DNA from: a virus
IMG/VR virus record: IMGVR_UViG_3300032240_000667
Coordinates: 1-26,548 of that record
Length of the DNA: 26,548 nucleotides
Strand: one strand, 5' to 3'
In this document: piece by piece, positions 450 to 23,500 of the stretch
Layout of the letters: every line of letters starts with the position of its first letter
Position numbering within the stretch: the first letter of the stretch is position 1
Translations under genes and position numbers: made by a program
The notes under the pieces: generated by a model
What the model saw: only the letters and a program-made list of their open reading frames with translations
The model's database searches: none
Told to the model about the DNA's origin: nothing

Positions 450-1001
450 ATGACAACAGTTTTTAAAAATCAATTACAAAGCAATGTAGGTCCTGTTACA
501 GCAGTAACCGCAGTGGCACCAAGTACACCATCTGTGGGATCAGTTAGATTAACTTTTTCTACACAGACAACAATACCATTTCCGATAGGAAGTTATATTT
601 CAGTACAAGGTGTTAGCGTATCAGGATATAATGGAACGTTCTTAGTTACTGGAGCCACGACTGGAACTGTAACTTATGCAAATGCAACAACAGGTGCCGC
701 AACCGGCGGCACTATAACTACGGTATTGTGGATATCTAATGCATCAGCTAAGACTACTGTTATCGGAATGAGTTTAACAAATACTACACTTAATGTGGTA
801 TTAACATCAGTGCAATTACAAGATACAGTTGCAAATACAACAGCTTATTATGCTAAAGATGTAGTAGTACCTGCAACGCAAAGTTTGCGTTTAGTATCAG
901 CTGGCGAAAAATTGATTCTTGGACCAAGCACAAATTTATTACTATCAAGTAATGTGGCAGCCAGTATAGATGCAATATTAAGTTTTGTTGAAATTAGTTA
1001 A
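450..1001 (+). CDS. Small beta-rich virion protein carrying an inserted E module
   Basis: This 183-residue protein starts 3 bases after the previous stop, with AGGA at 440-443 as ribosome-binding site. The core (about residues 1-16 joined to 90-183) is a compact beta protein with AKTTVIGMSLTNTT, AYYAKDVVVPATQSLRLV and EKLILGP, resembling small structural proteins of T4-like aquatic phages. Residues about 25-88 form a separate module (TQTTIPFPIGSYISVQGV, YNGTFLVTGATTGTVTYA) closely matching one inside the 3558-residue fibre ([36 protein letters not shown]). Removing it rejoins VGPVT to TVLWISNAS. The 110-residue protein at 20373 has the same kind of core without the insert. Virion function is inferred from family resemblance and position. 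Confidence 0.65.
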   Translation: MTTVFKNQLQSNVGPVTAVTAVAPSTPSVGSVRLTFSTQTTIPFPIGSYISVQGVSVSGYNGTFLVTGATTGTVTYANATTGAATGGTITTVLWISNASAKTTVIGMSLTNTTLNVVLTSVQLQDTVANTTAYYAKDVVVPATQSLRLVSAGEKLILGPSTNLLLSSNVAASIDAILSFVEIS

Positions 1002-1412: not shown

Positions 1413-4400
1413 ATGGCAGCAGAATTTAAAATTGGTAGATTACGTTTTACATGGAACGGAATTTGGGCACCAAGCACATTTTATAACAGAGATGCGGTTG
1501 TAAACTATAACGGTAAAACTTACGTATGCGTAGTACCAAACACATCAAGCAGTAATTTTTATAACGATTTAAATGCTGTTCCTTATTCGTATTGGAACTT
1601 AGTAGTAGATGGCAAAAAATGGATCGGAGCATGGATTACTTCTACATTTTATAGTGTAGGTAACGTAGTTACTTTTGGTGGCAAGGCATACTATTGCACA
1701 CTAGCACATACTAGCACAGCATTCGCTCTTGATTCTAGCAATTGGGCAGTGTACTCTGAATTTGCCACATGGAATTCTGATTGGACTACTGGTAAGACCT
1801 ACGGTGTCAATGATGTAGTAAAATACGGCGGCATAGTTTATAAATGTATCGCAAATCATACTAGTGCAGTATCGTCTGCATCGGGTCTTGAAGCCAACCA
1901 AAGTGCATGGACAATACTATTCAACGGATTAGAGTATAAAGGTATATGGACTGGTGCTTCATTTAGATATAAAGCTAATGATTTAGTAAAAAATGGTCCT
2001 GATCTATGGATTTCATTATCGGGTCACACATCTACAACATTATTTGACCAAACTAAGTGGGCGTTATGGTTACCGGGTCAAGAATACGCAGGTATATGGT
2101 CAGCAAGCACAACTTATCAACCAGGCGATACAGTTGAATACGGCGGATACGAATATGTTAGCCAAACAGCAAATAATATTAATAATATACCATCGATTGA
2201 TGCTGTTGATTGGAAATTATTAAATGCTAGCTTTAACTGGAGATCATCTTGGAATGTAGGATCGGCATACTTGGTTGGCGATACTATAACTAGAAATGGT
2301 GTAACATATACTGCTATTGCAGATAATACTGCTCAAGATCCTGCGGCATTTACTACAAATACAACTTATACAGCTACTGGTAGTTCAGGAACTACTTTAA
2401 AGGTAGCTAGTACGACTGGTATTGTTATCGGAATGAACATTATCGGTGTAGGATTTAATCAAGGTCAAACAGTGTCGACAGTAGTTGACAGCACAACATT
2501 AACAATCAGTGCCGCTCCAGCAAATACAATCGTAGATGCACAGGCATTAAGTTTTGTAGGTGTAAACTATGTTTATTGGAATATACTTTTACCAGGAACA
2601 TACTGGAGAAAATTCTGGACTAATGTCGTTACTTATACAGTAGGTGATCTAGTTGTATGGCAAAATAAAACGTATGTTTGTATTCAAAGCCATACTTCCA
2701 CCGTAAATGTGAGTGGAGTAGTAGCAACAGGAAATCGACCAGATGTTGATACAACAAATACATATTGGGCGCCGTACATTGCACACTCTGCAAAAAATGC
2801 AATGAATACATATGGTGATATAGAAACTTATGGATCGACTAGTCTCCTTGGAAATGTAATTTATACAGGTCGAAAAGCTATTCCAATTGGCACTGAGCAG
2901 TATATGTTACGAAATACTGCCGGAACACCAACATGGACTAAAGTTCTTGTAATTCCAGCAGTGTATTATGTTTCAAATTCAACTGGTATTGATAGATCCG
3001 ACTACGGTACTACATGGGATCAACCATGGAAAACTATTAGATATGCGTGTGACACCGTTGGTGCAGGCACTCAAAATGTGTACGCCGCATCAAATATAAC
3101 TAAAAATAAACTTTGGATCACCACTGAAATGATACAGTGGACATTGTATCAAATAGCCAACAGTCTAAGCGGATTCACTCCGGCATATCAATTAAATCAA
3201 ACTAAGGCTGTTAGAGATGCCGGATATATTATTGATGCTGTTGCATACGATATTGCGCGAGGGGGTAATAGTCAAACAGTAGCGGCAACACTTGCATATT
3301 TTGTCTTTGGAAGTACAAATACTTTCTTTAACGCAGACGTCGCCGCAGACATGCCTTACTATTTGCCGATGCTGAACAGATTAGCAGTGCTAATTAATAA
3401 TGCTGTAACAACCACACCATTAAGCCAAAGTTATCAAACAGCCAGCATAGCAACTGCTTCAGCAGGCACTATTTCTGGATTTACATTCACTGCCAGTGGA
3501 ACTGTTACCGGAACATTTGCAGTGGGTATGATATTATCAGGCACAGGAATTGCAGCCGGAACTTACTTAGTATCCGGTAGTGGAACAACTTGGACTGTAA
3601 ATACATATCAAACAGTTTCTTCAACTAGTATTTCCGGTATAACGGCCGTAATTCCATTTACTGTAGGTTCAACACCTGAAAACTTATCACCGGCAGCAGT
3701 TCAATCATTATTAAGTATAATTACAACAGCACTAACTTCACAAAGTACTGCGCTTGTACCAGTACCAAATACCGGAGTTCAGGCAACTATCTATGTAAAA
3801 ACAGGAACCTACGGGGAAACACTTCCTATAGTGATTCCACCAAACGTTGCTATTGTCGGCGACGAACTGAGAAGTGTTGTCGTTAAACCTGCCGTAGCAA
3901 TTTCAACTACCGCCACAGCAACTTCATCAGCAGATAACACAGTTACAATCACATCAACTACTGGTCTTGTAGACCAAATGCCGGTACAGTTTGTAGATCC
4001 GTCAATTTATACAACCTTTACTTATGTTTCTCCGTTTGCATCTATAACGGCTGGAAAAACTTACTATGTAGTAGGTTCAACTATTACTGCAACAAAATTT
4101 AGTATTACAGGGTCTAATGGAACTTATAATTTAATAACTAGTGTAACTGTAACAGGTACCGGAGTAGGAGCAGAGTTTACAGTATCTCCGACATCCACAG
4201 GATCTTATAACGTTTCACTATATAGTGGCGGTTCGGGATATACTGTCGGTACTTCAATAAAAATACTTGGAACTAGCATCGGCGGCGTAACTCCAGGAAA
4301 CGACATTCAATTAACTATACTTCAAGTTAGTAGTGGCGCAATTACAGCATTCAATTTTATCAGCGGAAGCTCAATAATTCCAATGACAACAGTCACTGGT

Positions 4401-7400
4401 TCTATGACAATGTATGCGGGCGATTGTTTAAAAGATATGTTCCGTATGCGCAATGGTAGCGGATTACGAAATGCTACACTAATAGGATTGCAAGGATCGC
4501 TAGGAGCACCTGATGCAAACTTTATTCAACGTCCGACTGGCGGCTCTTATGCTTGCTTTGATCCAGGCACCGGACCTAATGACACTACTGCTTGGATTTA
4601 TAGAAGAAGTCCTTACGTACAAAACGTTACATCATTTGGTAATGGATGTACAGCATTAAAAATAGATGGAAATTTACACAACGGTGGTGCCAAGACTATA
4701 GTTGCTAATGACTTTACACATATTATCAATGACGGAGTTGGTGTATATTGCACCGGACCGGGTGCGCTTACTGAAGTTATTAGCGTGTTCTCATATTATG
4801 GATACACTGGCTATTTTGCAGAAGACGGCGGCCGTATTCGAGCAGCCAATGGTAATACTTCATATGGTACCTATGGTGTTATCAGCTCAGGTTATGATTT
4901 AACTGAAGCACCAGCTACTGGTATTGTATTCAATCAGTCAAGTCAAGTGCAGGCAACGGTACAAAGTGCGTTTGGAACAACATCTCAACTGTTGAGAATA
5001 AATTATTCAAACGCTGGGTCTAGTTATAGTACTACAACTACGAATATGTTGTACTACACTAATAATTTTATTGGAGCTAACTGGGCTACAGATAGTAATG
5101 TTAGTTTTTCAAAAGTAAATCAAGCACCAACTGGATTAGTTGAAGCATGGACTATGACTGGTACTTCTGGGGTAGCTGGTAATAGTTATGTCTATCAAAA
5201 TATATCAGTACCTCCTCCGGGCGCAACTTATACAAATATTTCAGCAGTTAATGTATCTGGTTCAGGTAGCGCCGCGACTTTTGATATTACTGTTACTAGC
5301 ACAGCCTATGTAGTTGTAGTGAATAATCCAGGAAGCGGATATGCAGTTACTAATCAACTATACATTGCAGGTTCAACATTTGGTGGTGTAAACAACGTTA
5401 ATGATTGTGTTCTTACAATTACAGGACTAGCCGGTAGTACAATTACTGCGGTATCAGTATCTGGAGTTGTTCCAATCAATAGCGCATTAAATTACACATT
5501 CAGTGTGTATGTTAAGCAAGGAACTGCTACTAGTATTGACTTATACGGCATATTCTCAGGCACCTCAACTATGACCAGTGCGATTAGTTATAATTTTGTA
5601 ACTAATACAATAACAGCATCAAGTTCAGGAAGTTATACTATTGGGTCAACTGTGATTAATTCATTTACTCCAATAAACTACGGTGCTATAAATCAACAAT
5701 TATCAACAACTAGTCCAACAGCCGGTTGGTATCGTTTATGGTTTACATTAAATGATAGTTTAGGATTAAACAACAATCTACAATTTAGAATATATCCAAA
5801 AGGATATAGCGGATCGGCTAATGCATACACATTTGTTTACGGCTCGCAAGCTGAATTATCAAAGAGTAATTACGTTCCTAGTTTTTATTTAGAAAATGTA
5901 ACTAACACACGTTATACCGGATACGCTAATTTTAACATTAGTGGCGCTGGTACTGGAGTTGTTACAGTTGCAGATGAAATTAGAACCGGTTCTATATTCC
6001 AGACTCGAGTTATTAACGATTCGTTTGGATTCTCAGGTGGTGCAGGTTACTTAACGTCAAGCAACAACGCTCAATCGGGTGCTGATCAATATATTCAACT
6101 ATCACAATCAGATGCAAATACTAATGCTAACTACACAGGTATGAGATTGTTTATTATTAGTGGCGCCGGCGCAGGACAATACGGCTATATTTCGTACTTT
6201 AATGCAAGCAACAAGTATGCTTATATTCTTAAGGAATCATTTACACCATTAAGTATTGCAAGTACTGATAGTGGCACTAATCAATTTACCCTATCATCCG
6301 GCACAAATACTACGTTATATGTTGGACAACCTGTACAATTTATTCCGACTTATTATACTACATCAATTACTTCGACATCTTTAGCACAAACTACAGTAAC
6401 CGCATCAGTTGGTGGAACAACAAATACACTAACAGTAGCTAGTACTGTTGGACTGGCAGTCAACACTTTAGTAACATTTACTGCTACCGGTGTTGGCCAA
6501 ACGTTGTTTACTTCAGTACAATCAAACTATAATTATTATATCTACGCTATTCTTAACAGTACTACAATACAAATTACAAGTACGATATTTGGTAACGTAT
6601 GGCAGTTAAATAGCGGCACCGGTAGCATGACAATGAACTTTAGTTCTAATACTAGATATTTGCAAGCATCAACAACTAATATGGTAGTTAATTTGCCTAT
6701 GCAATTTACAGGAACTGCGTTAGGTGGTTTAAGTAATGGTGTACAATATTATATTAAAGATATTATTGATTCTAATAATTTTTCAATATCGGGATCATTA
6801 GTTACTATTACAGTAACCGCAACTAATGCTAGTAATGGCCAATTAACCGTTACATCTACGGCGGCGCTAATACCATTGAGTCCTATTATTTTTAGTACCC
6901 CGACTATAGGAACGTTTGTAGACGGAACCAAATACTATATTAGTTCTATTGTTAACAGCACAACGTTCACAGTAGCAAGTACACTATTATCATCGACTGC
7001 GACAGCAACAACCGCAGTAAGTAACTTAGTAACAGTTCCTAGTACAACCGGCTATGTTTCTAATCAACCAATTGTGTTTGTAGGAAATACGTTTGGGGGT
7101 ATCACAGCTGAAACAGTTTATTATATTTTAGCTATTAACAACGCAACAACATTTACAGTTAGTGCAACACCTGGAGGTGCGGCAGTTACCCTATCTACAG
7201 CTTCGGGATTAATGACAGCTAGAACTTGCCCAACATATGTAGTCCCAACTAGTGCTAGCGGTGGAAGTATGATTGGTACTACTACAGGAGCTAAAACAGC
7301 AGTAACATTAAGTATCGGTACAATGACAGGAACCTTCTCAACTAACTTATTTGGTAATGTTGTATTAGGTACAACATACTACATTAATACGATACCTAGT

Positions 7401-9620
7401 ACTACAGTATTCACTATTACAGCAACAAAAGGCAGCGGCACAGCATTTGCACTGAGTACAAAAACAGGAGCCATGAACATAGCAGAAGTAGGATGGGATC
7501 ATTTAAACTTAGGAACTACCCCAGCGATTGCATTTGATGCATCAACTGTTTATTATATCGAACCTAGAGTAATATATTCTGCTCCACCATTTATTCAATC
7601 AAGTTCTATAGTTCCAAGTCTAGCTATCGGTTCTTATTGGACCGCAGTCGCATACGGAAATAACTATTGGCTTGCATTACCAAGTTCAAACTCAACTGGA
7701 GCATATTCAACTGACGGTCTTACATGGTTAAGTATGGCCCTTCCGTCCTCACAGTCGTGGTCAGCAATCGCATTTGGAAATGGTTATTGGGTCGCAGTTG
7801 CTAGTGCCAGTACCGTTGTAGCGGTAAGCAAGTCAAACGGACAAGGTTGGACTACATATTCATTACCGAGTACATCAGCATGGTCATATGTTGCATACGG
7901 TAACGGAGTATTTGTAACAGTAGCATCTGGACAAATTAGCAATACCAATGTAGCCGCATACAGTACTGATTTTGGTAGAACATGGACAGCTTCTACACTA
8001 CCTGCAAGTACTAACTGGGTAAGTTTAACTTACGGTAATGGCATTTTTGTAGCTATATCTGGAGGTAATAATACCGCTGCCGCATATTCAACTAATGGTG
8101 GTCAGACATGGACTTCGTCAACACTACCTAACGCATACTATACTTGTGTAGCGTTTGGTAATAATCAATTTGTTGCAGTTTCACAAGTAGGTACAGCTTC
8201 ATACACAGCATATAGTTTAGATGGTAAAACATGGACACAATCTAATGTACAGCTTCTTGGCAACTATATGGCCTATGGTAACGGAGTGTTCCTAGTCGTA
8301 CCGGGTTCGGGAAGTGCTACAGCATATACATCAGAAGGCGGTGGCATTTGGAAACAACAAACAGTATCTAATATTGAATATAGATGCATTGCATTTGGTT
8401 TAACAGCATCAGGCAGTGGTATATTTGTAACACTAGGTGGAGTAGCAACAGGCACAACTATTAGTACAGGTGCTACAACAAAAGCAAGACCTACTATTAC
8501 TTCAAATACTATTACAGCATTAAACGAATGGGAAGCAGGCGGAGGTTATACATCGACCCCAACTGTCACTTTTACAGATCCTAATGTAACATTATTAGCA
8601 GTAGTATCCCCAAGGATAGGAAATGGAGTATTGGGCAGTCCGTCATTTGTCAGCAGAGGGTTAGGTTACAGTACTTCATCAACATTATCTATTGTAACAG
8701 GTAATGGATATGCTGATGCATATCAAACAGGGTTGACAATTATTTTAAATAATTTAACAAGAATACCGCAACCGGGTGATAACTTAACCATCTCTGGTAT
8801 AAGTCAAGTGTTTAAAGTAACAAGTGCATATGCTGTGTTCAATACTGTTGCTCCAAATTTAGAAGCAAACGTAAGCGTTAGTCCGAGTATTACTACAGCA
8901 ACATCTACTGCTAACGGAACAGCGGTTAGCATAAGATCTAAATATAGCCAAGCACGTTTATCCAATCATGACTTTTTAAACATAGGTTACGGTGACCAGG
9001 CAGCATCAAACTATCCGGGTTACCCATCAGCTGGATATGCTTCGTTACCTCAGAATCAAGTTATTGAAGTTAACTATGGTCGAGTATTTTTTACAAGTAC
9101 CGACCAGGATGGAAACTTTAAAGTAGGTAATTTGTTTGGAGTCCAACAGGCAACAGGTATTATTACTTTAAGTGCTAGTCAATTTGGTCTAAGTGGCTTA
9201 AGTAGTTTGAGTTTAGGTGGTATTAGCGTCGGTGGCTCAAGTGTTGTTATTACACAATTTAGTACAGATGCTACATTTACTGCAAATAGCGATAGTTTGT
9301 TACCAACGCAAAAATCTATCAAGAGTTATATTACAAGTCGTCTAAGTCAAGGCGGAGCAAACACATTTACTGGACAATTAATTGCTGGTTCTGTAGTAGT
9401 TGGTGGACCAAACTTTATATCATCAGCTGTACCAAACGGGACTGCTGGTTCTGTAGTAAGGGTCGGCACCAACGGAACTACTACTAATAAAGTATACATT
9501 GCAGGACCAGCAGGAAATTCTCCGCCAACTTTACCACTTTTTGGTAGTTACGGCGGTGGCGGTGTTGACGGATCAATGGTAGCTTATCACTTCTTTATAA
9601 GACATTCCAGTAAAAAGTAA
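1413..9620 (+). CDS. Giant modular tail fibre/adhesin (2735 residues)
   Basis: The start is set by AAGGAA at 1399-1404. Domains in order, by residue: seven carbohydrate-binding-like repeats (1-459; W..sT.Y..GD.V.Y.G..Y.C..HTS..D...W); a short linker; a beta-helix-type region beginning YYVSNSTGIDRSDYG with DQPWKTIRYAC (517-550); RDAGYIIDAVAYD (601-613); an A module (680-743); GTYGETLPIVIPPN with GDELRS (791-827); a C module holding a D module (829-999); the conserved beta-helix core (1001-1170; RMRNGSGLRNATLIG, GGRIRAANGNTSYGTYGV); a jelly-roll-like domain (1213-1495; TFSVYVKQG, AGWYRLWF) interrupted by a D module; a tandem of C modules (1615-2026); a seven-bladed Asp-box propeller (2067-2348); and a C-terminal block (2510-2630; [27 protein letters not shown]) ending in a Gly-rich tail. 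Late virion adhesin by inference. No signal peptide, so a bacterial surface protein is unlikely. Confidence 0.85.
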   Translation: MAAEFKIGRLRFTWNGIWAPSTFYNRDAVVNYNGKTYVCVVPNTSSSNFYNDLNAVPYSYWNLVVDGKKWIGAWITSTFYSVGNVVTFGGKAYYCTLAHTSTAFALDSSNWAVYSEFATWNSDWTTGKTYGVNDVVKYGGIVYKCIANHTSAVSSASGLEANQSAWTILFNGLEYKGIWTGASFRYKANDLVKNGPDLWISLSGHTSTTLFDQTKWALWLPGQEYAGIWSASTTYQPGDTVEYGGYEYVSQTANNINNIPSIDAVDWKLLNASFNWRSSWNVGSAYLVGDTITRNGVTYTAIADNTAQDPAAFTTNTTYTATGSSGTTLKVASTTGIVIGMNIIGVGFNQGQTVSTVVDSTTLTISAAPANTIVDAQALSFVGVNYVYWNILLPGTYWRKFWTNVVTYTVGDLVVWQNKTYVCIQSHTSTVNVSGVVATGNRPDVDTTNTYWAPYIAHSAKNAMNTYGDIETYGSTSLLGNVIYTGRKAIPIGTEQYMLRNTAGTPTWTKVLVIPAVYYVSNSTGIDRSDYGTTWDQPWKTIRYACDTVGAGTQNVYAASNITKNKLWITTEMIQWTLYQIANSLSGFTPAYQLNQTKAVRDAGYIIDAVAYDIARGGNSQTVAATLAYFVFGSTNTFFNADVAADMPYYLPMLNRLAVLINNAVTTTPLSQSYQTASIATASAGTISGFTFTASGTVTGTFAVGMILSGTGIAAGTYLVSGSGTTWTVNTYQTVSSTSISGITAVIPFTVGSTPENLSPAAVQSLLSIITTALTSQSTALVPVPNTGVQATIYVKTGTYGETLPIVIPPNVAIVGDELRSVVVKPAVAISTTATATSSADNTVTITSTTGLVDQMPVQFVDPSIYTTFTYVSPFASITAGKTYYVVGSTITATKFSITGSNGTYNLITSVTVTGTGVGAEFTVSPTSTGSYNVSLYSGGSGYTVGTSIKILGTSIGGVTPGNDIQLTILQVSSGAITAFNFISGSSIIPMTTVTGSMTMYAGDCLKDMFRMRNGSGLRNATLIGLQGSLGAPDANFIQRPTGGSYACFDPGTGPNDTTAWIYRRSPYVQNVTSFGNGCTALKIDGNLHNGGAKTIVANDFTHIINDGVGVYCTGPGALTEVISVFSYYGYTGYFAEDGGRIRAANGNTSYGTYGVISSGYDLTEAPATGIVFNQSSQVQATVQSAFGTTSQLLRINYSNAGSSYSTTTTNMLYYTNNFIGANWATDSNVSFSKVNQAPTGLVEAWTMTGTSGVAGNSYVYQNISVPPPGATYTNISAVNVSGSGSAATFDITVTSTAYVVVVNNPGSGYAVTNQLYIAGSTFGGVNNVNDCVLTITGLAGSTITAVSVSGVVPINSALNYTFSVYVKQGTATSIDLYGIFSGTSTMTSAISYNFVTNTITASSSGSYTIGSTVINSFTPINYGAINQQLSTTSPTAGWYRLWFTLNDSLGLNNNLQFRIYPKGYSGSANAYTFVYGSQAELSKSNYVPSFYLENVTNTRYTGYANFNISGAGTGVVTVADEIRTGSIFQTRVINDSFGFSGGAGYLTSSNNAQSGADQYIQLSQSDANTNANYTGMRLFIISGAGAGQYGYISYFNASNKYAYILKESFTPLSIASTDSGTNQFTLSSGTNTTLYVGQPVQFIPTYYTTSITSTSLAQTTVTASVGGTTNTLTVASTVGLAVNTLVTFTATGVGQTLFTSVQSNYNYYIYAILNSTTIQITSTIFGNVWQLNSGTGSMTMNFSSNTRYLQASTTNMVVNLPMQFTGTALGGLSNGVQYYIKDIIDSNNFSISGSLVTITVTATNASNGQLTVTSTAALIPLSPIIFSTPTIGTFVDGTKYYISSIVNSTTFTVASTLLSSTATATTAVSNLVTVPSTTGYVSNQPIVFVGNTFGGITAETVYYILAINNATTFTVSATPGGAAVTLSTASGLMTARTCPTYVVPTSASGGSMIGTTTGAKTAVTLSIGTMTGTFSTNLFGNVVLGTTYYINTIPSTTVFTITATKGSGTAFALSTKTGAMNIAEVGWDHLNLGTTPAIAFDASTVYYIEPRVIYSAPPFIQSSSIVPSLAIGSYWTAVAYGNNYWLALPSSNSTGAYSTDGLTWLSMALPSSQSWSAIAFGNGYWVAVASASTVVAVSKSNGQGWTTYSLPSTSAWSYVAYGNGVFVTVASGQISNTNVAAYSTDFGRTWTASTLPASTNWVSLTYGNGIFVAISGGNNTAAAYSTNGGQTWTSSTLPNAYYTCVAFGNNQFVAVSQVGTASYTAYSLDGKTWTQSNVQLLGNYMAYGNGVFLVVPGSGSATAYTSEGGGIWKQQTVSNIEYRCIAFGLTASGSGIFVTLGGVATGTTISTGATTKARPTITSNTITALNEWEAGGGYTSTPTVTFTDPNVTLLAVVSPRIGNGVLGSPSFVSRGLGYSTSSTLSIVTGNGYADAYQTGLTIILNNLTRIPQPGDNLTISGISQVFKVTSAYAVFNTVAPNLEANVSVSPSITTATSTANGTAVSIRSKYSQARLSNHDFLNIGYGDQAASNYPGYPSAGYASLPQNQVIEVNYGRVFFTSTDQDGNFKVGNLFGVQQATGIITLSASQFGLSGLSSLSLGGISVGGSSVVITQFSTDATFTANSDSLLPTQKSIKSYITSRLSQGGANTFTGQLIAGSVVVGGPNFISSAVPNGTAGSVVRVGTNGTTTNKVYIAGPAGNSPPTLPLFGSYGGGGVDGSMVAYHFFIRHSSKK
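1425..2790 (+). repeat. Seven carbohydrate-binding-like repeats, first giant fibre
   Basis: About seven degenerate repeats of 50-60 residues follow the pattern W...t.Y..GD.V.y.G..Y.c...Hts......D...W, which resembles chitin-binding type 3 / CBM5/12-like modules. Clear examples are WAPSTFYNRDAVVNYNGKTY, TTGKTYGVNDVVKYGGIVY and VVTYTVGDLVVWQNKTYVC. The sixth repeat (about 2240-2615) is split between ADNTAQDP and YVYWNILLPG by a roughly 70-residue C-like module (LKVASTTGIVIGMNIIG). Surface-glycan binding is inferred from the family pattern; a ligand cannot be read from the sequence. Confidence 0.7.
6255..7490 (+). repeat. Tandem C modules (about five copies) in the first giant fibre
   Basis: The module runs N.lTVaSt..m.vg.Pi.FtGt.fGgi..gttYYi..I.nsTtFtvsat.gG.avtLsTatG.M over about 60-75 residues. 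Copies include LTVASTVGLAVNTLVTFTAT, MQFTGTALGGLSNGVQYYIK, LTVTSTAALIPLSPIIFSTP, IVFVGNTFGGITAETVYYIL and LFGNVVLGTTYYINTI. The array sits between LKESFTPLSIAST and GWDHLNLGTTPA. In the paralogous giant gene the same two flanks hold only about two copies, so copy number differs at an equivalent site. Function is unknown; a spacer or structural role is inferred. Confidence 0.75.
7612..8455 (+). repeat. Seven-bladed Asp-box (BNR-type) propeller, first giant fibre
   Basis: Seven repeats of about 40 residues share W.sVaYGnG.FVAv followed by aYStDg.tWt.s.lPss. Asp-box-type motifs are visible, for example STDFGRTW and STNGGQTW. Blades begin near SYWTAVAYGN, QSWSAIAFGN, SAWSYVAYGN, TNWVSLTYGN, AYYTCVAFGN, GNYMAYGNG and IEYRCIAFGL. 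Seven blades match a closed propeller. No sialidase arginine triad was recognised, so a binding or structural role is more likely than catalysis. Confidence 0.75.
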
Positions 9621-9647
9621 TCATTATAACACCATAAAATAGATTAA

Positions 9648-9655
9648 GATAAATA
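9648..9655 (+). promoter_or_regulatory. Possible T4-type late promoter element
   Basis: The 53-base gap between the giant genes contains GATAAATA, a 7 of 8 match to the T4 late promoter element TATAAATA. It lies about 20 bases ahead of the start codon, beside the ribosome-binding site AGAGGAA (9661-9667). In an AT-rich genome such matches arise easily by chance, so this is tentative. Confidence 0.35.
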
Positions 9656-9674
9656 TTATCAGAGGAACATTAAA

Positions 9675-12600
9675 ATGGCAGAATTTAAACTAGGTAGAAT
9701 TAAGTTTGTTTATCAAGGTAATTGGACTACAGGAAACTCATATGTAGTCGATGACGTTGTTACAGTAGGCGGTAAGACTTATATCTGTGTGATCAGTCAC
9801 ACAGCATCCGCATTATTTTCGACAGACTTAACTGCTAACCCAACTAATTGGAATGTGGTTGCTGACGGGTTAAAATGGACCGGTTCATGGGCAACTGCAA
9901 CTTACTACAATACCGGGGATCAAGCACTATACGGTGGGACTGTTTATATTTGTAAAACAGCTCATACTTCTGCCGCAACTACTGCATTGGGTCTTGAAGC
10001 CGATCAAAGCAAATGGGATGCATTTGCATCAAACTTTAATTGGCTAAATGCATGGGCAATTAATACTCGATATAAAGTTCGTGATTTAGTATACTACGGT
10101 GGTTACACTTATGTTTGTAACACATACCATACATCAGCCGCAACTACTACATTAGGTCTTGAAGCTGACCTAAGCAAATGGGACATATTTAATGCAGGTA
10201 TCGCATATCAGGGTAACTGGAGCGGAAGTAGTGTTCGTTACAGACTCAATGACGTAGTAACTTACGGTCCAGATTTATGGATTTGTACAACTTCTCATAC
10301 TTCGACTGGTACAGATTTAGATCTAACTAAGTTTAGTTTATTAGTTAACGGCTTCCAATTTGAAAACTCTTGGAGCTCTTCAACAGTTTATCAAATTGGT
10401 GATATGGTTACATATGGTGGTTATACTTACACTTGTATCTTAGGCCACTCTAATCAAACACCTAGTACTGCGTTTTCTTACTGGCAACCATTTACTACTG
10501 GTTTCAACTATCGTGCAGACTGGAATAGTTCAAATAATTATAGAACAGGCGATGTAGTAAGACTGGGCGGATATACATATCTTGCAATATTAGATAATGC
10601 CGTACAAAAAGTAGTTGGAATTAGCACCACAGTTTCATCCGACGGCACTCGTCCTAATCAAATTACGCTTGCATCGGCTATCGCTACAACCAGCGCATCT
10701 GCCAGCGGCGGGACTGCTACTATTGGATATGCGACCCAAACAGGTATTCCGTTTGCAGTAGGACAACAAGTTGTTATCGCAGGAGTTACACCAACTGTAT
10801 TCAATGGAACATGGACCGTAACAGCCGCATCGACAACTAGTGTACAATTTGCACTTACTGGAACATACGGTCCACAAACTGTTTCAGGAACTGTTTCAGG
10901 AACAACTGCTACGTTAAACGTTGGTCTACCAATAACATTTGGCACAGCATTAGGCAATTTGCTAACAACTAGTACATATTATGTAAACACTATCAATGAT
11001 AGTACGCATTTTACAGTAACAGCAACACAAGGTAGTGGTACACCATTTGCATTGGTAACAGCAACAGGCTACACAACAGGTACTACAAATCCAACACCAC
11101 CATACACCACTTACTGGAATAGATTAAATTCTGGTATACGTTGGAATGATGCCCAACGAGTTTATAGTGCTGTAAGTGCAACTAATGTGGCTTCTTCTGG
11201 AAGTTCTGCAACATTTAACGTTACCGCTTCAGGTACAACATATTCTGTAACAGTTGCTTCAGGTGGTTCTGGTTATGTTGCCGCTGATACTTTAAAAATT
11301 CTTGGAACAAGTCTTGGCGGACTAAGCCCAGCTAACGATTTATCTATCACAGTTAATACTGTATCAGGCGGAGTAATTCAATCTGCAGGCGTTAGCACAA
11401 GCGGTATTGCAGTAACATGGAACAGTAGTGTAACTTATGTGTTAGGTGATGCCGTGTTCTGGGGCGCCAGCAGTTATATTTGCGTGGCAGCCCACGTTTC
11501 TGCATCAGGTAATAGACCCGACAATGATACAACTGCATTATATTGGAACTTATTAGCAGCCGGTGCTGAACAATCAGTTCTTACTACAACTGGTGACATG
11601 TTCTATTATGGTAATAATGGTCCTACTCGTTTACCAATTGGTAGTAATGGACAAGTTCTACGTGTTAATAGTAGTGCCCCATCGTGGTCATACTACGGTC
11701 AAATCAATAATATTGTATATGTTTCACCATTAGGAACTGATGCACTGACTAACGGTCAAGGGACTACTTTAGATACCCCTTGGAAAACTGTACGATATGC
11801 TTGTAAACAACTTGAAGAAGGATATTTAAACACTAATTCAGGTTTATTATTATCTGTTAACAAACAATTTATGTTAAAAGAAGTTAACAACTATATTACC
11901 TACAAATATTCTGTAACAGTAACTAGTTCAAGCTCATCAGGAAATATACTAGGCACTAGCTCAACAGCCAATTTGTATGTTAATATGCCGATTGTATTTA
12001 CAGGTACAACATTTGGTAATATTGTAGCAGGTACAACATACTATGTGTTAACTATCGTCAACGCAACAACATTTACAGTAACCGCAACATCTGGCGGCTC
12101 TTCATCAGTTACATTAACAACTACTACCGGATCGATGGTTGGTACATACGCATACGACACAACTAAAACCGAAAGAGATGCAGGACTGGTAATCGACGGT
12201 GTAATATTTGACTTAACACATGCCGGAACTTTTAAGACTACAACAAATGCTCAATCATATTTTAATACAGCAGGTACAGGTTTAGCTACCGGTGTTAATG
12301 CTAACGATATAACCCCATTCGTTGATGCACTAACATACCTAAAAGGAACATTGTTTAATTCAGTGTTGGCAAACTCCGCTCCGAGTAGTAATTATCAAGC
12401 ATTAAATGGAATTAGTTCAGGAAATAGAGCGATTCAAAATACAACTAGTGTTGCTACATCAGTAGTTGAAAGTGGTTCATTGACTACCGTACAAGGATTA
12501 ATAACACTAATCACTAATGCACTATCAGTTGGAAATACAACCCAACTACCAGCGGCTATCGTTCCATATAATACTGTTAGTATTAAAACAGGCACTTACA

Positions 12601-15600
12601 ATGAAATTTTACCTATCATTGTTCCTGCGTTTACAGCAGTAGTTGGAGACGAACTACGTTCAACTATCGTGCAACCAGCAACTGCAATATTAAATTTAGT
12701 TAATGATAAACCTAAATCTATAGCATCATTACAACGAATTTCTGCCGTATTACCTAACTTATTAACCAACGCTACAGTAACCGCAACTACAAGTGTAATT
12801 AATCCAAATACACAAACGCAGGTTACTAGTTTACCAACAGGTGATACCGGGTCACAAACCGCAGTTAATACTGTACTAAGTGATATTGCAATTATCGAAG
12901 ATATGATTTATAACGGTGTTCAACAAGCACCTGCAATATCTGTACCATCTGTAACTAACTATAACACAAGCTACCTAGTTGGTTTTGGAGACGGTAAGGC
13001 ACAGATTTTACAAAACTATAACTTTATCAAAGCAGAAGTTGCAAACTTTTTAAATGTTAACTATAACGCAATCTGGACTGGGGCAGCTTTCCAGGCAGGT
13101 ATTAATGCAGAAGTATTGCGTGATGTTGGATTTGTTTTAGATTCATTAATCTATGATATGTCTTATGGTTGTAACAATCAAAGTATTATTCAGGGTAGTT
13201 CTTATTATTCATTAAATATTCTTCAAATTCCGACAGCTTATTTGTCAGCAAGGGTGGCTGCTTTACAAAGAGTATCTGCTATTATTAGTCAGATAGTAAC
13301 AGCTACAACAGTATCTGCAACAGCAAGTACAGCACCATATTCTTCTGCACAAGTAACAACTGGTACAGCAGGTAGTGCGGCAGCCGCGTCATTTGCGGCA
13401 GCTCGTGTTCAAGATGTTATCTATTGGATACAGAATGGCGTTGCTAATACAAGTGCTCCTGTAGTAACTGGATCAATATCAAGTACAACAATGACTGTTA
13501 CCGCGGTAACTAGTGGAACATTAACTCCAGGTATGCTAATTACAGGTACAGGTGTAAGTACACCAACTTACCTAGTAAGTCAAGTAACTGGTACTACAGC
13601 AGTGGCTTCACCTACATATTCAAGTGGTGGCGCAAATGGAACAAATACTTTTGTAGTTAGTTCTGCAACAGGCATTGTTGCTGGACAATTCGTTACAGGA
13701 ACAAACATTCCAGCAGGTAGTTATGTTATTTCAACATATACTTCTGGTACAACCATTACTATAGTTAATGCATTTGGTTATCCAAATAACTTTGGTGCAA
13801 GTGCTCCAACTGGTACTATTAACTTCTATACAGCAGGTGGAACAGGAACTTATACAGTAAACACAACACAAACAGTATCAAGCACAACTCTAACTGGAAA
13901 TTCAACAATCACTCCAATTACCAGCGGTGCATATGCTAACGTAGCAACCGCCGCATTACAAACTGCTTATACAGCGTTGTCTGGCAGAGCTACTGAGATC
14001 GCAAGTGACTCTCAAGCATGGGTTACAAAATACTATCAAGCATATCCAATTAGTACTACACTAACTAACAGAGATGCAGGGTTTATTATTAACGGTATTG
14101 TATGGGATGTATTGTTCAGCAGTAATTTTAATGCTATTGTAATCGGACGATCATTTAATAGATCAAATACAAGTGCTCAAGCATTGTTAGCTAATACTAA
14201 TCAAGAATTAAATGCAACAGTTGGTTCAATTAATCTTATTGGATTTAAAGCAAAAACAATCGCAGCCAGCGGTTCAGTTATTCGTGCTCAAGGTATTATT
14301 AACGATATAGTGCAAACTATAACAGGTCAAGTTACTACAACACTAACAACAGCAACAACTAGCACAAATGTGTTGACTGTAGCTAGTACAGCAACTATGC
14401 AAATTGGAATGCCAATCGCATTTACAGGTCTACCAGCTAATATCACAACAACATCAACAGGAACTACCAGTTCGGGAAATACAATTACATTGGCTGCAAC
14501 TGTGGCTAGTTTGGGAGTTGCTGTAGGACAACAAGTTTACTTTACAGGAACTGTTCCTCCTCCGATAGTCCCCAATCAGATGTATTTTGTACAATCAGCT
14601 TCAGCAAGTGTAATTACGATTTCAAACACATTTGGTGGCGCCGCAATCACATTAATCACTGCAACACCAACAGGTACAATGAATGTAATCTTCAATAATG
14701 CGGGCGGATTATGGAACAATAATATATATTATGTTGCAAGTATTCCAAGCACAACTACATTAACAGTTAGTGCTAGTTTTAACGGATCAGCTTATACTAT
14801 TACAAATACTAAATCAAGTATGACTGCAACTGCGGTTGCTGGTATCAGTAATTCTGTAGGAACAGTTAGCAGTTATCAAACAACTAATGGAACGTTGACT
14901 TACGATAATTCAAGAACAACTATCCAGGGTGTTGAAGTATTACGTGCAAATACAGCATTCCTAGCTAGTGAAGCTAGTGCATATACAGCATCTACATTCT
15001 ACGGAAACTATACAACTGCATCAAATTCAACAACTGCTAGCGGAACTGCAAGTAGCATTACCGGAACAACATTAACAGTCGGTGGCACAGTCACCGGAAC
15101 ATTTGTAGTTGGTATGGTATTAACAGGTACCGGAGTAACTACAGGAACTTATATTACTGCTCTAGGAACAGGAACAGGAGGTGCAGGTAATTATACAGTT
15201 AGTTCAAGCCAGACAGCTTCATCAACTACAATTACTGGCACAAGTAACTTGTTTACAACAGCATCAGCACATAATTTATCAGTAGGCGATCCTGTACAAT
15301 TTACTGCACCTAGTTACAGCACTACAATTACAGGCACAAATACTAACGGTAATATTACTGTTAGAACATCTACAGGTTGGTTAGTAGGTATGCAAGTTAT
15401 AGTTACTGGAACACAGATTAGTACATTGAATGCCGCAACTTATTATGTTAAAACAGTAGTTAATAGCACAACCGTTACTCTAAGTTCAACTTATAACGGT
15501 TCAACATTTACACCCGGTGCAACTGCAACAGGTACAATGGCTGCTACTGCTGGTGGTATTTTTGGCGGACCATCTACAAGCACTACATATTATGTATTGT

Positions 15601-18600
15601 CAACTCCGTCGACTACTAGTGTAATACTAAGTCCAGTTCAAGCAGGACAAGGAATACAAAGTGTTGTTCCAGCAATTACTGCCAACGGAAACGCCTCATT
15701 AAATTATTATTACAATCCTACATCATGTTTAAGAGATACTACTGAATTTGTAAATGCATTGATATACGATATTCAATATCCAGGTAATTACAAATCAATG
15801 CGAGCTACTGAATTGTATCTAAATGCAGTCGGTGGCTCAACTAGCAAAAATATGTACCAGGTTAGAAACGGTACAGGTGTCAGAAATCAAACCCTAACAG
15901 GTATTACAGGGACACTAAGCTCAGCTAATAGCTTTGGCACAAAACGTCCAACAGGCGGTGCGTATGCAAGTTTAGATCCAGGATTTGGACCAAACGATAC
16001 AAACGTATGGATTACAAGTCGTTCATGCTATACCGTAAACTGTACTATGTTTGGTTATGCCGCAGTTGGCGGTAAAGTCGATGGCGCATTACACGCAGGC
16101 GGTAACCGTTCTATGGTTGCTAACGACTATACTACTGTTCTAGGTGACGGTATCGGTTATTGGATTACTGGTTCAAACGCACTTGCTGAATTAGTTTCAG
16201 TGTTTAACTACTATGGATATTCAGGATACTTAGCAGAGCTAGGAGGACGTATTCGTGCTACTAACGGTAATAGTTCATATGGTACATATGGTGTTATTGC
16301 TGAAGGAGTTGACACATTTGAAACACCTATCTATGGTACATTGAACAATCGTTATTTTGGTGCACAGATTACTAACGTCGTGACAGATTTGACCAATCAG
16401 ATATTACGATTTGAATATGCAAATGCTGGTTCAAACTATACTAACTCAGTAGCAACTATTAGTGGTTCAGGTTATAATGCGGCAGCGGCGCATGATGAAT
16501 TCCGCGATGCTTCGATATTTGAAACTCGTTTAGTCGACCTTAATGATACTAAAGGAGTTGGCGGATCAAGTTATGTAACAACATCTAATGCGGCACAGGT
16601 AACTAGTAATAATTATTCATTTACTATCGCAGCCACTGATACAGCATTGACTGATGCATATAACGGTATGCGCCTCCAACTTACTGCTGGTACTGGTGTT
16701 GGACAATACGCAAACATTATCAAATATAATGCTACTAAAGTTGCAAATATTGTTCGTGATACATTTGTTCCATTACAAATTACAGCATGCCAGACTACAA
16801 ATAATCTGTTTACTGTGGCTAGTACTGCAACGATGTATACAGGTATGCCACTTTATGTATACACAGCATTTGGTCCATTAACAACTGGAACAGTTTACTA
16901 TGTAAACAGTGCTAATTTTTCTGCCACACAGTTCCAAGTAAGCACAACATCAGGCGGATCAGGTGTGGCAGTAACAGTAGCTAGCAACATAACAACCGTT
17001 ACTGTTACTGTTACGGCAACAGCGATCACAAACAATTTAATAACAGCAACTAATACATTGTCAGCAGGCCAGGGTATTACATTTAACAGTTCGTTCAATG
17101 GTATTGATTCTGGAACTACATATTATGTGTTAGCGACAAACTTAACAACTAGTTCGTTCGCTGTTGCAGTATCTCCGTTTACAACTACAGCAGTAACTAT
17201 TACTGCTACAGGTTCTGCTAGTTCAACCGGTACTGTTAGTACAGGTTTATTTGCCGCTGGATTTGATCATATCGTTGCAGGAACTCCAATTGCATCTGGC
17301 ACAGATTTAACTACTACTTACATTATTGAACCACGTATTAGCTATTCTGCTCCTGGCTATCTACCAACATCTAGAACACTACCAGGGGCGAGTGCAACTT
17401 GGTCAAGTGTAACATATGGTGCAGGTAATTTTGTTGCAATCGCTAACGGCCCAAGTACACGAACTGCTTATAGTACAGATGGAAAGACCTGGACTTCGGG
17501 TGGCGCGATGCCAAGTAGCCAAGCATGGAAGAGTGTAGTATATGGTGGCGGCCAAGGTGCTAGAGCAACCGCAGTAGTCGGGGGTCTAGGCGGACAGGGT
17601 GCAGTACTACAAGCAGTTATTGGTACTGGATCCAGTGCTACACAGATTGTAAGTATCACAGTAGTTAACGGTGGATATAATTATACAACTGCACCGACTA
17701 TTATAATTACAGGCGGCGGCGGCTCAGGTGCTACAGCATCATGCACTGTTTTAAACGGTGTAATTCAAACGGTTACTATGTCTATCAATGGTAGCGGTTA
17801 TACTAGCACTCCAACTGTTACACCTTCAACAAGTATATTATCTAGTATTACTGTTAATTCATGGGGAAGAGGTTATTATACAACTCCAACGGTTACTATT
17901 GATCAACCAGCTGGACTGAGTCCAACTGCGTTTGCTTTGAATACCGCAGTTAGCTTAAATGCTTATATTCAAACAGCGGCCGGTAGAATCTATCAAGTGA
18001 CTACCGCAGGTACAACTGATCTTTCAATAACACCTAGTTTTGATTATACAAGTTCTAGTCAAAGTCAAACTAACGGTACAGCAGTATTAAAATATATTGC
18101 TACTCAAGCTCAGGTTAACACTACAAGTATTTTACAAAATAGCGGAGTATACCAATTACCACTATCAGTAACAGGTTATGGTTATGCTGGTACACCAGCA
18201 GTTACTATCCTTGATAGTACAGCTAAATTTGTAGCTATATCAAACGGTAGCACAAGTGCCGCATATAGCACAGTAGCTAACTTAGGTAATACATGGACTG
18301 CAAGTAGCGGAGCATTACCTGCCAGCAACTTACAGGCATTGGCATACGGTAACGGAGTTTATGTAGCCGTAGGTGGTGCAAGCGGAACAGCAACATGCGG
18401 ATCAAGTAGCGATGCATTGACTTGGATTTCAAGAAGCATAACAGGGTTAAGTGCAGGTTACTATTCTGCAATTACTTGGGGTGCCGGTGGAAGTGCGAGC
18501 GGTACATTCGTAGCAGTTAACAATGGCGGTATTGTTACAAGTTGGTCAAACAACGGTGTAACATGGACACAAGGCGGAAACTTACCAAGCGGATTTACTA

Positions 18601-20351
18601 GTGCAGTTTCTATTGCATACGGTAATGGACGTTATGTTGTTCTTGGATCTGATGGTAAAGTTGCTTATAGTTATAATAATGCTGGTACTCAATCAGTACA
18701 AGGTTGGTATGCGTCTCCAACATGTTCAGGTACAACTACAAGCATATTAAGTTCTAGTTTAACATGGACTGCACTAACTTATGCACAGGGTGTGTTTATC
18801 GCAATCGCTCAAGGTACAGCAACTGCCGCAACTAGCCCAGACGGTATCAACTGGACAGTAAGAACTTCAGGAATGCCGAGCAGTTCTAATTGGGCTTCTA
18901 TTACTTTTGGAACTGTTTCTAGCACAATATTAGGAAGCCAACCATTGTTTGTAGCTATAAGTGCTACTAGCGGAAGTGTAGCAGCCAGTGTCAGAACAGG
19001 CGCAACTACCAGTGCAAGGATGAAAATTGTTGGCAACGGAACTACTAATGCAGTAAATGAAGTTAGATTAATAGAACCAGGTAGCGGATATCCAAAAGGT
19101 AACGTTACTACAACTACAACTAGCACTATAACCGCAGATGATATTACAAACTTATCAACAAGTATTGCTAATAATCAACCAGTTGAATTTACAAGTTTAG
19201 ATAGTTATGGCCTTGTAACAAATACAACCTATTACATAATCGGTTCTAGTGTTACAACAACCTCAGCACCGGCTGGTACCTTTCAAGTAACAGCGTCAGC
19301 AGGTAGTACTACTGTAGCAACACTAGTAGCAGGTACAAGTTTATCAGGTACATATCGTGCAGGTGCAGTAACAACACAGTTTGATCCAAATCGTGTAAAC
19401 ACAGCGCCATTACGTGTACGTATGGGGGATGGTGCTTTAGGTAACCCTAGCTTCCAGAACAGAGGTAGCAACAACGCTACAGCTACAGCTACAACAGGTG
19501 GCGATGGTTATGCTGATACGTATCAAAATTCAGCATATCTTAATATTTCTGGATTGTTTAGTATTCCTCAAGCAGGCGCTAACGTACAGTTTGCGTCAAT
19601 CACTGGAACTAGCCAATGGTATAAACTAGTTGCTGTTACTAATATTTTAGGTACTGCAGGAAATTATACAGCACAATTCCAAGTTAATCCAGCATTAAGC
19701 ACATTATTAGCACCTGCACATAGCAACTTAGTTACTACACGCTTGAAATATAGCCAGGTACGTTTAACTGGACATGACTTCTTATATATTGGTACTGGTA
19801 ATCAAACACAAACTAACTATCCGTTTGTTAATCCGGCTAATGCTATACAGGCTAATCAAACTTATCCAACAGGTGGCGGCCGAGTGTTCTTTACAAGTAC
19901 TGACCAAGACGGTAACTTTAACGTTGGTAACTTGTTTGGAGTTCAACAGTCAACTGGTACTGCTACCTTAAATGCTAGTGCGTTTAACCTAGCTGGTCTA
20001 CAAAGTTTGACATTGGGCGCGGTAACATTAGGTATTGGATCAGCTACAATTACACAGTTTAGTACAGATCCGTACTTTACAGCTAACAGCGATAACATTT
20101 TACCAACACAGAAAGCTATCAAGAGCTATATTACAGCCCAAATTGGTGGTGGACAAAGTGTTCTTAACGTAAATACGATCACTTCGGGAAGAATTTTCAT
20201 AGGTGGTAATACGATAAGTACTACTGACGGCCTTCAAATGTACGTGGGATCAAAAATGTACTTTGCAGGTGGCGGTGGAGCAGGTATAACACCAGGCGGT
20301 GGCGGCATAGACGGAGCACCAGTAGCCTGGTTCTTCTTCAGTCAAAGATAA
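9675..20351 (+). CDS. Giant modular tail fibre/adhesin, paralog of the upstream gene (3558 residues)
   Basis: AGAGGAA at 9661-9667 sets the start. Domain order follows the upstream gene with more insertions. Residues: carbohydrate-binding-like repeats (1-635), the sixth split by C plus E modules and the seventh by a D module; beta-helix start (678-711; [23 protein letters not shown]); a C module (744-826); RD-type motifs at 834, 1149, 1466 and 2020; [14 protein letters not shown] with GDELRS (973-1000); an A module (1256-1415) containing another insert; nested C modules (1554-1720, 1856-2006) and a further A (1786-1854); conserved beta-helix core (2060-2220; [31 protein letters not shown]); two C modules (2369-2526); an Asp-box propeller (2571-3116) with one blade split by about 220 residues; a C insert (3144-3232); the shared C-terminal block (3358-3480; [16 protein letters not shown]) and a Gly-rich end. 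Host-recognition fibre by inference. Confidence 0.85.
9690..11580 (+). repeat. Seven carbohydrate-binding-like repeats, two interrupted, second giant fibre
   Basis: The same W..s..Y..GD.V.YGGYtY.C..HTS..D..kW pattern occurs as in the upstream gene. Two neighbouring repeats are nearly identical ([19 protein letters not shown] and [19 protein letters not shown], near 9963 and 10129), suggesting recent tandem duplication. Repeat six is opened between YLAILDN and [10 protein letters not shown] by about 170 residues (C plus E modules). Repeat seven is opened between GIRWNDAQ and [16 protein letters not shown] by a D module (about 11165-11415). The upstream paralog has repeat seven uninterrupted. 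Confidence 0.7.
17385..19020 (+). repeat. Asp-box propeller with one blade split by a large insert
   Basis: Seven blades can be counted: [27 protein letters not shown] joined to [77 protein letters not shown] and [16 protein letters not shown]. The second blade is cut after YGGG and resumes at KFVAIS about 220 residues later. The insert contains Gly-rich repeats of the type [17 protein letters not shown] and [14 protein letters not shown]. Catalysis is not suggested by the sequence. Confidence 0.7.
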
Positions 20352-20720: not shown

Positions 20721-21611
20721 ATGGCTCGTTATAATACTTCCGCAATCGCAGCAACGGTTGGTGGTACCACTACAATAACATCACCTGGCGCTGGTTTGTT
20801 TACTGAATTTACAGGAACAGGACCATATACGGTTACAATTCCTGATGCTACACTATACCAAGGTACTACGCAGACATTTTATAATTCAACTAGCAGTGTT
20901 GTTACGTTACAAACACCCCAAGCAGGTCAGTATTTTAAAGGTCCAGGCCAAACGGGTACTAGCAACCAATATGCATTAGCATCACAAGGTACAACAATTT
21001 TAGCATCAGATGGAACATTTTATGCTGTTGTTTTAGGTTCTGGTGGTCCAGTTGCGGCAACTACATTAAGTGCTAGTTCAACTGTCACGCTAAGTCCAAG
21101 CGGTGCAAGCGTTACAATTAGTCCAACTGGCGGGTTGACTGTTGCTCCTACAAGTATTACTGGTACGATTGATAACGTAAACATTGGTGCAACTACTCAA
21201 GGTACTGGTCGTTTTAGTACACTGGTAACAACTAGTGCTACACAAGGTTCTAGCGCAACAAGTGGTCAATCTGTATTGCTTGCAGGCGGTGTTGGTATCG
21301 GCGGCACATTATATACTGTTGGTCTAGTCGAAACATCAAGTATTGTGTTTAAAGAAAATGTACAACCACTAGTTAATCCTTTAGATAAGGTATTAAGTAT
21401 GATGGGCGTTACTTATGATCGTAAAGATGGTCATAGAAAAAACGAAGTTGGTTTAATTGCAGAAGATGTTTATAAAATTGCACCTGAGCTAGTTACACTA
21501 GACGAACATGGTAACCCTTATGGTATTCAATATACTAAAGTTACTGCATTTTTAATTGAAAGTATTAAATCATTAAAAGCTGAACTTGATTCTTTAAAAG
21601 GTAAAAAATAA
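20721..21611 (+). CDS. Tail fibre with C-terminal S74 intramolecular chaperone domain
   Basis: This 296-residue protein has a weak GAGAG ribosome-binding site at 20708-20712. The N-terminal part (1-110) is beta-rich with TVTIPDATLYQGTTQTFYNS, typical of phage fibre shafts. The middle carries GTIDNVNIGATTQGTGRFST and LLAGGVGIGGTLY, linkers widespread in fibres. Residues about 203-296 form a peptidase S74 / endosialidase-type intramolecular chaperone: SSIVFKENVQPL, GLIAEDVYKIAPELV and YGIQYTKVTAFLIESIKSLK. The expected Ser-Lys dyad is present as S206 and K211 with the usual spacing of five. In known members this domain drives trimerisation and then cuts itself off; I infer the same here. Its stop overlaps the next start (TAATG), suggesting coupled translation with the first tip adhesin. 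Confidence 0.85.
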   Translation: MARYNTSAIAATVGGTTTITSPGAGLFTEFTGTGPYTVTIPDATLYQGTTQTFYNSTSSVVTLQTPQAGQYFKGPGQTGTSNQYALASQGTTILASDGTFYAVVLGSGGPVAATTLSASSTVTLSPSGASVTISPTGGLTVAPTSITGTIDNVNIGATTQGTGRFSTLVTTSATQGSSATSGQSVLLAGGVGIGGTLYTVGLVETSSIVFKENVQPLVNPLDKVLSMMGVTYDRKDGHRKNEVGLIAEDVYKIAPELVTLDEHGNPYGIQYTKVTAFLIESIKSLKAELDSLKGKK

Positions 21612-22138: not shown

Positions 22139-22149
22139 GGAAAAATAAA

Positions 22150-22677: not shown

Positions 22678-22682
22678 TTAAT

Positions 22683-22940
22683 ATGAAATTTACAGTTATC
22701 GCCGACGATTGTACAGCATATATTAATACTGTTCCTTTACGTATAGATGTATCTGAGATACCGGATAACGTGCATGCATTACAGTATAATTTAGAAACAA
22801 ATAAAGGAAGAATCGAGTTTAAAATGAATGAAGATGAGATTAGACCTGATAATTTAATAATTGATAATTTGCCCGAATGGGGCAACGAGATACTTAAAAA
22901 GTATCAGTGGGAACAGCTTAAAGGTAGTAAATTTTTTTAG
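22683..22940 (+). CDS. Small VHALQ-motif protein, copy 1; possible fibre-assembly partner
   Basis: This 85-residue protein has TAAGAG (22668-22673) as ribosome-binding site and a paralog at 23566. Shared residues run through the whole length: MKFTVIADD, VHALQYN, TNKGRIEFK and NLPEWGNEILKKY. Proteins with a vhALQ..,.G.IEF..,.LP.W pattern are common beside fibre genes in many phages, usually as hypothetical proteins. Acidic and cytosolic by composition, with no signal peptide. The repeated placement after a tip adhesin suggests a chaperone or assembly partner, but this is inference only. Confidence 0.6.
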   Translation: MKFTVIADDCTAYINTVPLRIDVSEIPDNVHALQYNLETNKGRIEFKMNEDEIRPDNLIIDNLPEWGNEILKKYQWEQLKGSKFF

Positions 22941-22951
22941 GATAAGAAACA

Positions 22952-23482: not shown

Positions 23483-23500
23483 TAAAAGGAAAAACTAAAA

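Follow-up and report, generated by a model that had tools for sequence, protein, structure and literature searches.

The virus fragment analysed here (26.5 kb; positions 1 to 26,548 of IMG/VR record IMGVR_UViG_3300032240_000667; the whole stretch is referred to as the window) comes from an aquatic virus of bacteria and carries two adjacent giant tail-fibre genes, P0001 and P0002. In these genes an old fibre scaffold, made of CBM5/12 repeats, a beta-helix, a jelly-roll, a propeller and the C-terminus, has with a probability of about 0.8 repeatedly received small beta modules in frame, mostly in loops, including the loops of modules that had themselves been inserted. A preliminary description of the window had proposed that four short modules, here A, C, D and E, lie in frame within other domains as well as within one another, and this is confirmed by profile hidden Markov models (HMMs) in both fibres, by 49 insertion sites in related phages and by host matches that are restored once the insert is taken out. 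These sites are observed in empty and intermediate states, with nesting to several depths and with some sites used again by independent inserts, and both gains and apparent losses occur.

Fibre Genes and Module Families

Both open reading frames (ORFs) are open and in frame (Table 1), and both proteins match the PHROG 9851 tail fiber profile (E-values 1e-122 and 2.4e-140) and carry N-terminal CBM5/12 repeats (PF02839; 107.4 and 101.5 bits for P0001 and P0002, in six and five stretches, vs a Pfam gathering cut-off of 26.2). The tandem pair is kept in nearly all relatives examined, about 30 from IMG/VR, collected as 18 loci with P0001 as query and as further loci with other queries (L numbers below). 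By tblastn, the nearest isolates are the Kyanoviridae P-SSM2, S-SSM7, S-CAM1 and Mosig, whose PHROG 9851 fibres share the CBM repeats, the beta-helix and the C-terminal scaffold with the window fibres and are just 1090-1477 amino acids (aa) long; the A, C and E modules have no match in the orthologous fibre of these cultured isolates. The binding repeats, the tailspike-like beta-helix, the jelly-roll and the propeller suggest a putative glycan-binding adhesin.

Iterated profile HMMs, the mapping proposed in the preliminary description, recovered all four module types in both fibres, together with hundreds of copies in the relatives; the 64 aligned proteins hold 408 C, 190 D, 116 A and 29 E copies. 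In P0001, the HMMs place A at aa 689-738, an A-like module (X) at 326-367, C at 842-916, 1671-1740, 1746-1812, 1811-1869, 1871-1935 and 1964-2021, and D at 905-977, 1273-1344 and 2343-2398. In P0002, E lies at aa 345-407, C at 406-468, 757-821, 1602-1668, 1668-1717, 1894-1955, 2377-2441, 2454-2515 and 3151-3221, A at 1270-1318, 1324-1365 and 1797-1851, and D at 497-568 and 2681-2726. The same modules are also present in other structural ORFs near the fibres.

A module measures about 55-95 aa, and most inserts consist of 55-97 aa of module alone, and are therefore too short to carry a recombinase, transposase or homing nuclease of their own. The A and C profiles are homologous (hhalign probability 82%, P 1e-5), while E, with a weak resemblance to both in profile comparisons, is probably of similar fold. 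Single modules have no Pfam match, and the whole fibre proteins match CBM_5_12 only. No Ig-like Pfam match was found among the modules tested, and for C and E single modules gave no Pfam match to the FCCH-type barrel of E1 enzymes up to an E-value of 10. PDB profile searches with E and C gave chance matches only, none below an E-value of 0.3, and tblastn of single modules against isolates gave weak matches only (C to Microbacterium minor tail proteins, E to a "phage stabilization protein").

Empty Sites and Nested States in Relatives

For each protein, 32 orthologues were aligned, and an insertion was counted when it was at least 40 aa long and its flanking aligned segments were at least 40% identical. 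Under these thresholds 49 clean insertion sites were found, at 35 of which the insert is at least half covered by an A, C, D or E HMM; module residues make up 51% of inserted residues vs 22% of all residues in these alignments. Nesting occurs at about ten sites, and an empty relative shows one uninterrupted host module across the insertion point for host C carrying A, D or, at several loops, another C, for host A carrying A or C, and for host D carrying C. In host C, the points of insertion are close to profile positions 6-9, 18-22, 41, 50 and 57-59, which would be loops between strands.

The most complete series is found at the CBM-repeat site of P0001 near aa 310-385, with four states (brackets enclose the insert): empty (L035, L038, L040, L042, L045), X alone (the window and most other relatives), X[A] (L011, L014) and X[A[E]] (L017, L018, L020, L025, L031, L034, L037); in L024, an A module occupies another loop of X. 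Similarly, the site at P0002 aa 316-480 is found in relatives as an empty CBM or with A, C or C[E], and the one at aa 1265-1410 as empty, with A, or with A carrying two different inserts, one of them C-like. The D-in-C site of P0001 is empty in some relatives and holds an A-type insert in L011, and those relatives that possess the helical sub-domain of P0001 show it unbroken across the 682-743 site. In the propeller region of P0001, relatives carry LamG-like, C, A or D inserts. The LamG-like domain (concanavalin-type, by motif; about 200 aa) is present there in 12 relatives, for example at aa 2284-2480 of the L018 orthologue.

The cleanest empty and filled pair lies outside the region covered by the preliminary description, in a separate small protein of 183 aa (ORF 450-1001) upstream of the fibres. 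Its relatives without the E insert are 109-118 aa long, and its L013 and L039 orthologues have an extra A-like insert at a different place.

Joining of the Host Halves and Predicted Structure

In the window, the two halves of each interrupted host module were joined without the insert and scored on the module profile, with 200 random joins as control. For the two C[C] hosts, the joined module scores 69.2 bits vs 43.3 and 27.3 for its halves, and 56.2 bits vs 27.2 and 21.0; the A[A] host scores 52.6 bits vs 39.3 and 13.9. Joining brings a smaller gain for the C[E] (58.0 vs 53.2 bits) and C[D] hosts (48.2 vs 43.8 bits) because one of the halves is short. Only 0-2 of the 200 random joins score as well. 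An alternative P0002 A[A] assignment in which the inner module begins at aa 1294 did not pass this test and was replaced by 1304-1387. The fibres thus show the recursive architecture A1-B1-C-B2-A2, in which an insert itself hosts a domain and the outer host is complete once the insert is removed.

The AlphaFold2 model of P0002 218-640, built with 25 orthologues, has a mean predicted local distance difference test (pLDDT) score of 83.8; most of C, E and D scores 85-95 in the CBM context. Foldseek relates this model to CBM5/12 (chitin-binding) domains, to phage fibres and, weakly, to ubiquitin-activating E1 enzymes; the UBA1/UBA6 matches, for which the matched target domain is not displayed, have probabilities of 0.35-0.75 and E-values of 0.26 or worse, and C and E may or may not share the fold of the FCCH-type barrel. 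In the model of P0001 515-1215, confidence is high for the host beta-helix and the helical sub-domain to either side of the inserts; the former matches phage tailspikes (best E-value 8.7e-5) and the latter (3063-3755) phycobiliprotein/globin-like folds (probability up to 1.00, template modelling score about 0.5). The host fold is thus predicted to be intact across the inserts, in agreement with the earlier proposal that they leave the surrounding fold undisturbed. Among the host domains listed there, the binding repeats (Pfam CBM_5_12) and the modules themselves hold up, and the jelly-roll (roughly residues 1215-1500 of P0001) and propeller (roughly residues 2060-2310 of P0001) are putative assignments from motifs, with no model match. 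The tailspike-like beta-helix with its helical sub-domain is a further host, one that the preliminary description does not name.

Origin of the Inserts

The preliminary description had further attributed the architecture to a repeated insertion process, and the empty and intermediate states bear this out. At least 12 inserts are present in a single carrier while the site is empty in five or more relatives, and by parsimony such single-carrier inserts are best explained as gains. On a tree built from host columns, parsimony requires 77 changes vs 175 losses if every insert were ancestral. This difference argues against precise deletion out of a fully loaded ancestor, which would also need to stop close to the module ends at dozens of sites, and against which stand the outgroup-like compact fibres (L040, L042 and the cultured isolates) without most modules. 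In-frame losses do exist, since L047 and L048 are 99.97% identical and yet differ by in-frame indels of 120 and 84 nucleotides (nt) in the two fibre genes, but as the main source of the observed states deletion is improbable. These indels, around 15865 and 22851-22971, have short shared bases at their ends and involve helical and CBM pieces. The 95% identical phages L034 and L037 differ at L034 22286-23508, where helical units of about 380 aa are present in one only, a difference resembling gain or loss between repeated helical units. No clean single-module difference was found in these two near-identical pairs.

A weightier alternative, appreciably less probable than even odds though the strongest of the rivals, is that the inserts are old and have mainly been redistributed or lost through mosaic homologous exchange of fibre segments between phages, with few new insertions. 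The closest copy of a module is usually at the orthologous site (80/93 for A, 308/331 for C), the host tree demands many changes at certain sites (six at column 4194 of P0002 and five at column 109), and L011 lacks E within a clade carrying it, so that losses or replacements occur too. Such exchange, however, accounts poorly for the dozen or more single-carrier inserts, and a number of sparse inserts, several of them single-carrier, have their nearest copy at a different site, in some cases within one genome: for the window A at P0001 689 the nearest is a module at 1981 of the L013 P0002 orthologue, and two L014 C copies are mutually closest (81% identity over 102 nt). It also leaves the first entry of a module into a new host domain unexplained. 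The A module found only in the window has no close copy in IMG/VR (best 48-49%).

Two further explanations concern the reality of the nesting itself. The preliminary description had named a single continuous linear repeat fold as the contrary case, and the tandem C array of P0001 (1650-1980) and the GGSGY repeats are indeed linear; the empty sites and unbroken host modules of relatives, the profile matches restored on joining and the modules confident in AlphaFold2 models nevertheless make a solenoid with merely apparent nesting very improbable. Chimeric metagenome assembly is the least credible of all: every giant version does come from metagenomes, but independent records repeat the same states, three metagenomes yielded the identical L016, L019 and L026, the frames stay open over 3000 aa and the flanks are conserved.

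Four points weigh against repeated insertion as set out here. The direct repeats flanking the inserts average 4.7 nt vs 4.4 expected, and neither a target-site duplication nor another DNA footprint was found, although the inserts are old (about 70% nt identity) and a duplication could have been lost. The structure check called for in the preliminary description is favorable for C, E and D in the CBM context, but the window-only A and the C-hosted D have low confidence in the model of P0001 515-1215. The limits of the nested modules may be off by a few residues, and the module HMMs were trained on the same sequences that they map.

As no target-site duplication was found, we can only infer how the DNA is inserted. 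Under repeated insertion, illegitimate recombination would capture module DNA from the pool of fibre genes, whether in the same genome or in related phages, and homologous exchange among such genes would carry it onward. A module that is compact and has its ends close together may be tolerated in a loop, and would be retained as it alters the adhesin surface. Insertion may lengthen the fibre, as proposed earlier, but loop inserts in barrels and in the propeller more probably add lateral surface rather than necessarily length. A stronger version, in which A, C, E and D form a protein-level mobile family selected for insertability (compact, with close ends, tolerated in loops) that spreads through structural genes and into itself, the fibre growing by recursive self-insertion, is speculative and unlikely.

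Feature Map and Neighboring Genes

The features are collected in Table 1. No relative was found that keeps the jelly-roll without its D, and that one insertion is therefore without an empty site.

Table 1. Nested features of the two fibre genes and of the upstream small protein (nucleotide positions of the window; residues of the named protein).
Feature	Position	Strand	Evidence or content
E inserted in separate small protein (183 aa)	504..719	+	relatives without E
P0001, giant fibre gene, 2735 aa	1413..9620	+	CBM5/12 repeats, beta-helix, jelly-roll, C array, propeller, conserved C-terminal domain
A-like module X in CBM5/12 repeat, P0001 aa ~316-383	2358..2561	+	HMM; four site states in relatives
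Beta-helix host region with inserted helical sub-domain, P0001 aa 515-1215	2955..5057	+	AlphaFold2, Foldseek
Helical sub-domain inserted in beta-helix, P0001 aa 551-781; missing in L015	3063..3755	+	alignment; Foldseek phycobiliprotein/globin-like
A inserted in helical sub-domain, P0001 aa 682-743; this window only	3456..3641	+	HMM; site empty in relatives
C, N-terminal part, host of D, P0001 aa 840-905	3930..4127	+	HMM, alignment, joining test
D inserted in C, P0001 aa ~906-983	4128..4361	+	alignment, joining test
C, C-terminal strand resumed, P0001 aa 984-1000	4362..4412	+	joining test
D interrupting putative jelly-roll, P0001 aa 1270-1360	5220..5492	+	HMM; no empty site found
Outer C, first part, host of tandem C array, P0001 aa 1623-1649	6279..6359	+	joining test
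Tandem C modules inside outer C, P0001 aa 1650-1978	6360..7346	+	HMM, joining test
Outer C, second part, P0001 aa 1979-2025	7347..7487	+	joining test
Propeller-type repeats, P0001 aa 2060-2310	7590..8342	+	sequence motif
P0002, giant fibre gene, 3558 aa, tandem paralogue of P0001	9675..20351	+	
C, first strand, in CBM repeat, P0002 aa 316-337	10620..10685	+	alignment, joining test
E inserted in C, P0002 aa 338-409	10686..10901	+	HMM, AlphaFold2, joining test
C resumed, P0002 aa 410-471	10902..11087	+	alignment, joining test
D in next CBM repeat, P0002 aa 495-582	11157..11420	+	HMM, AlphaFold2
C in helical sub-domain, P0002 aa 752-825	11928..12149	+	HMM
Outer A, first part, in helical sub-domain, P0002 aa 1265-1303	13467..13583	+	alignment, joining test
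Inner A, P0002 aa 1304-1387	13584..13835	+	alignment, joining test
Outer A resumed, P0002 aa 1388-1408	13836..13898	+	joining test
Outer C, first part, P0002 aa 1565-1591	14367..14447	+	HMM, joining test
Inner C, P0002 aa 1592-1674	14448..14696	+	HMM, joining test
Outer C resumed, P0002 aa 1675-1721	14697..14837	+	joining test
Outer C, first part, P0002 aa 1857-1877	15243..15305	+	HMM, alignment, joining test
Inner C, P0002 aa 1878-1958; 12 carriers, 16 empty relatives	15306..15548	+	HMM, alignment, joining test
Outer C resumed, P0002 aa 1959-2010	15549..15704	+	alignment, joining test
GGSGY-type (D-like) repeats interrupting propeller repeat, P0002 aa ~2627-2850	17553..18224	+	HMM

Helical motifs like those of the P0001 sub-domain (3063-3755) recur in P0002. 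The fibre of the cultured phage P-SSM2 (PSSM2_301; L063) has a beta-helix insert of about 60 aa with a weak A-like motif, which is not in the other isolates compared. Next to the fibres lie, on the minus strand, genes for a 2OG-Fe(II) oxygenase and a NUDIX hydrolase (24195-25231); in the isolate Mosig, 2OG-Fe(II) oxygenases are likewise beside the fibre gene. The region 21611-23847 encodes three similar proteins of 175-176 aa (at 21611, 22150 and 22952), and after each of the latter two comes a related small protein (85-93 aa). No reverse transcriptase or template repeat was seen among the PHROG matches in the 26.5 kb fragment, with no dedicated search for a diversity-generating retroelement.

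Relation to Known Systems and Significance

Recursive insertion of the form A1-B1-C-B2-A2 is known from the Si3 region of cyanobacterial RNA polymerase (rpoC2), where it is six levels deep (PMC13114784; HABAS/BEAN, PMC11515920). The view of the preliminary description that such recursion had not been reported as a system therefore does not hold in general (PMC13114784), but it may for phage fibres: no description of nested modules in them was found in the literature searched, a scope that excluded most subscription papers. Si3 resembles the fibres in its recursive architecture and in having a small beta domain inserted in its own copies, but it is one conserved housekeeping protein with few insertions in deep ancestors, whereas the fibres are virion adhesins with many polymorphic sites at which intermediates survive.

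Among phage proteins, CBM insertion in siphophage Dit proteins is well known (PMC9692632, PMC9437275), and evolved Dit/Tal proteins likewise carry an extra CBM domain, variable between phages, in a loop of a structural tail protein; unlike those of the fibres, these insertions are of one level and involve larger domains, with no nesting reported in the available portions of the two papers. Tail sheath proteins also have a conserved core interrupted by variable beta domains, but the portion of the source available describes mostly Ig-like domains and no module-in-module series (PMC9230969). Ongoing fragment exchange in receptor-binding proteins, as in the fibres, is reported in a study of phage-protein domain shuffling, the text of which does not use the terms nested, inserted or recursive (PMC10684548). 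What would be new with respect to known recursive insertion is its presence in phage fibres, unusually well resolved, and the case is notable because the intermediate states survive.

As a rule, domain nesting is known only from its end products, while in these related phages the empty site, the insert, the insert in the insert and the third level coexist. As the steps survive side by side, the entry of domains, the loops that accept them and the enlargement of an adhesin become directly testable, and the fibres provide a ready-made collection of natural beta modules suited to insertion, together with insertion sites.

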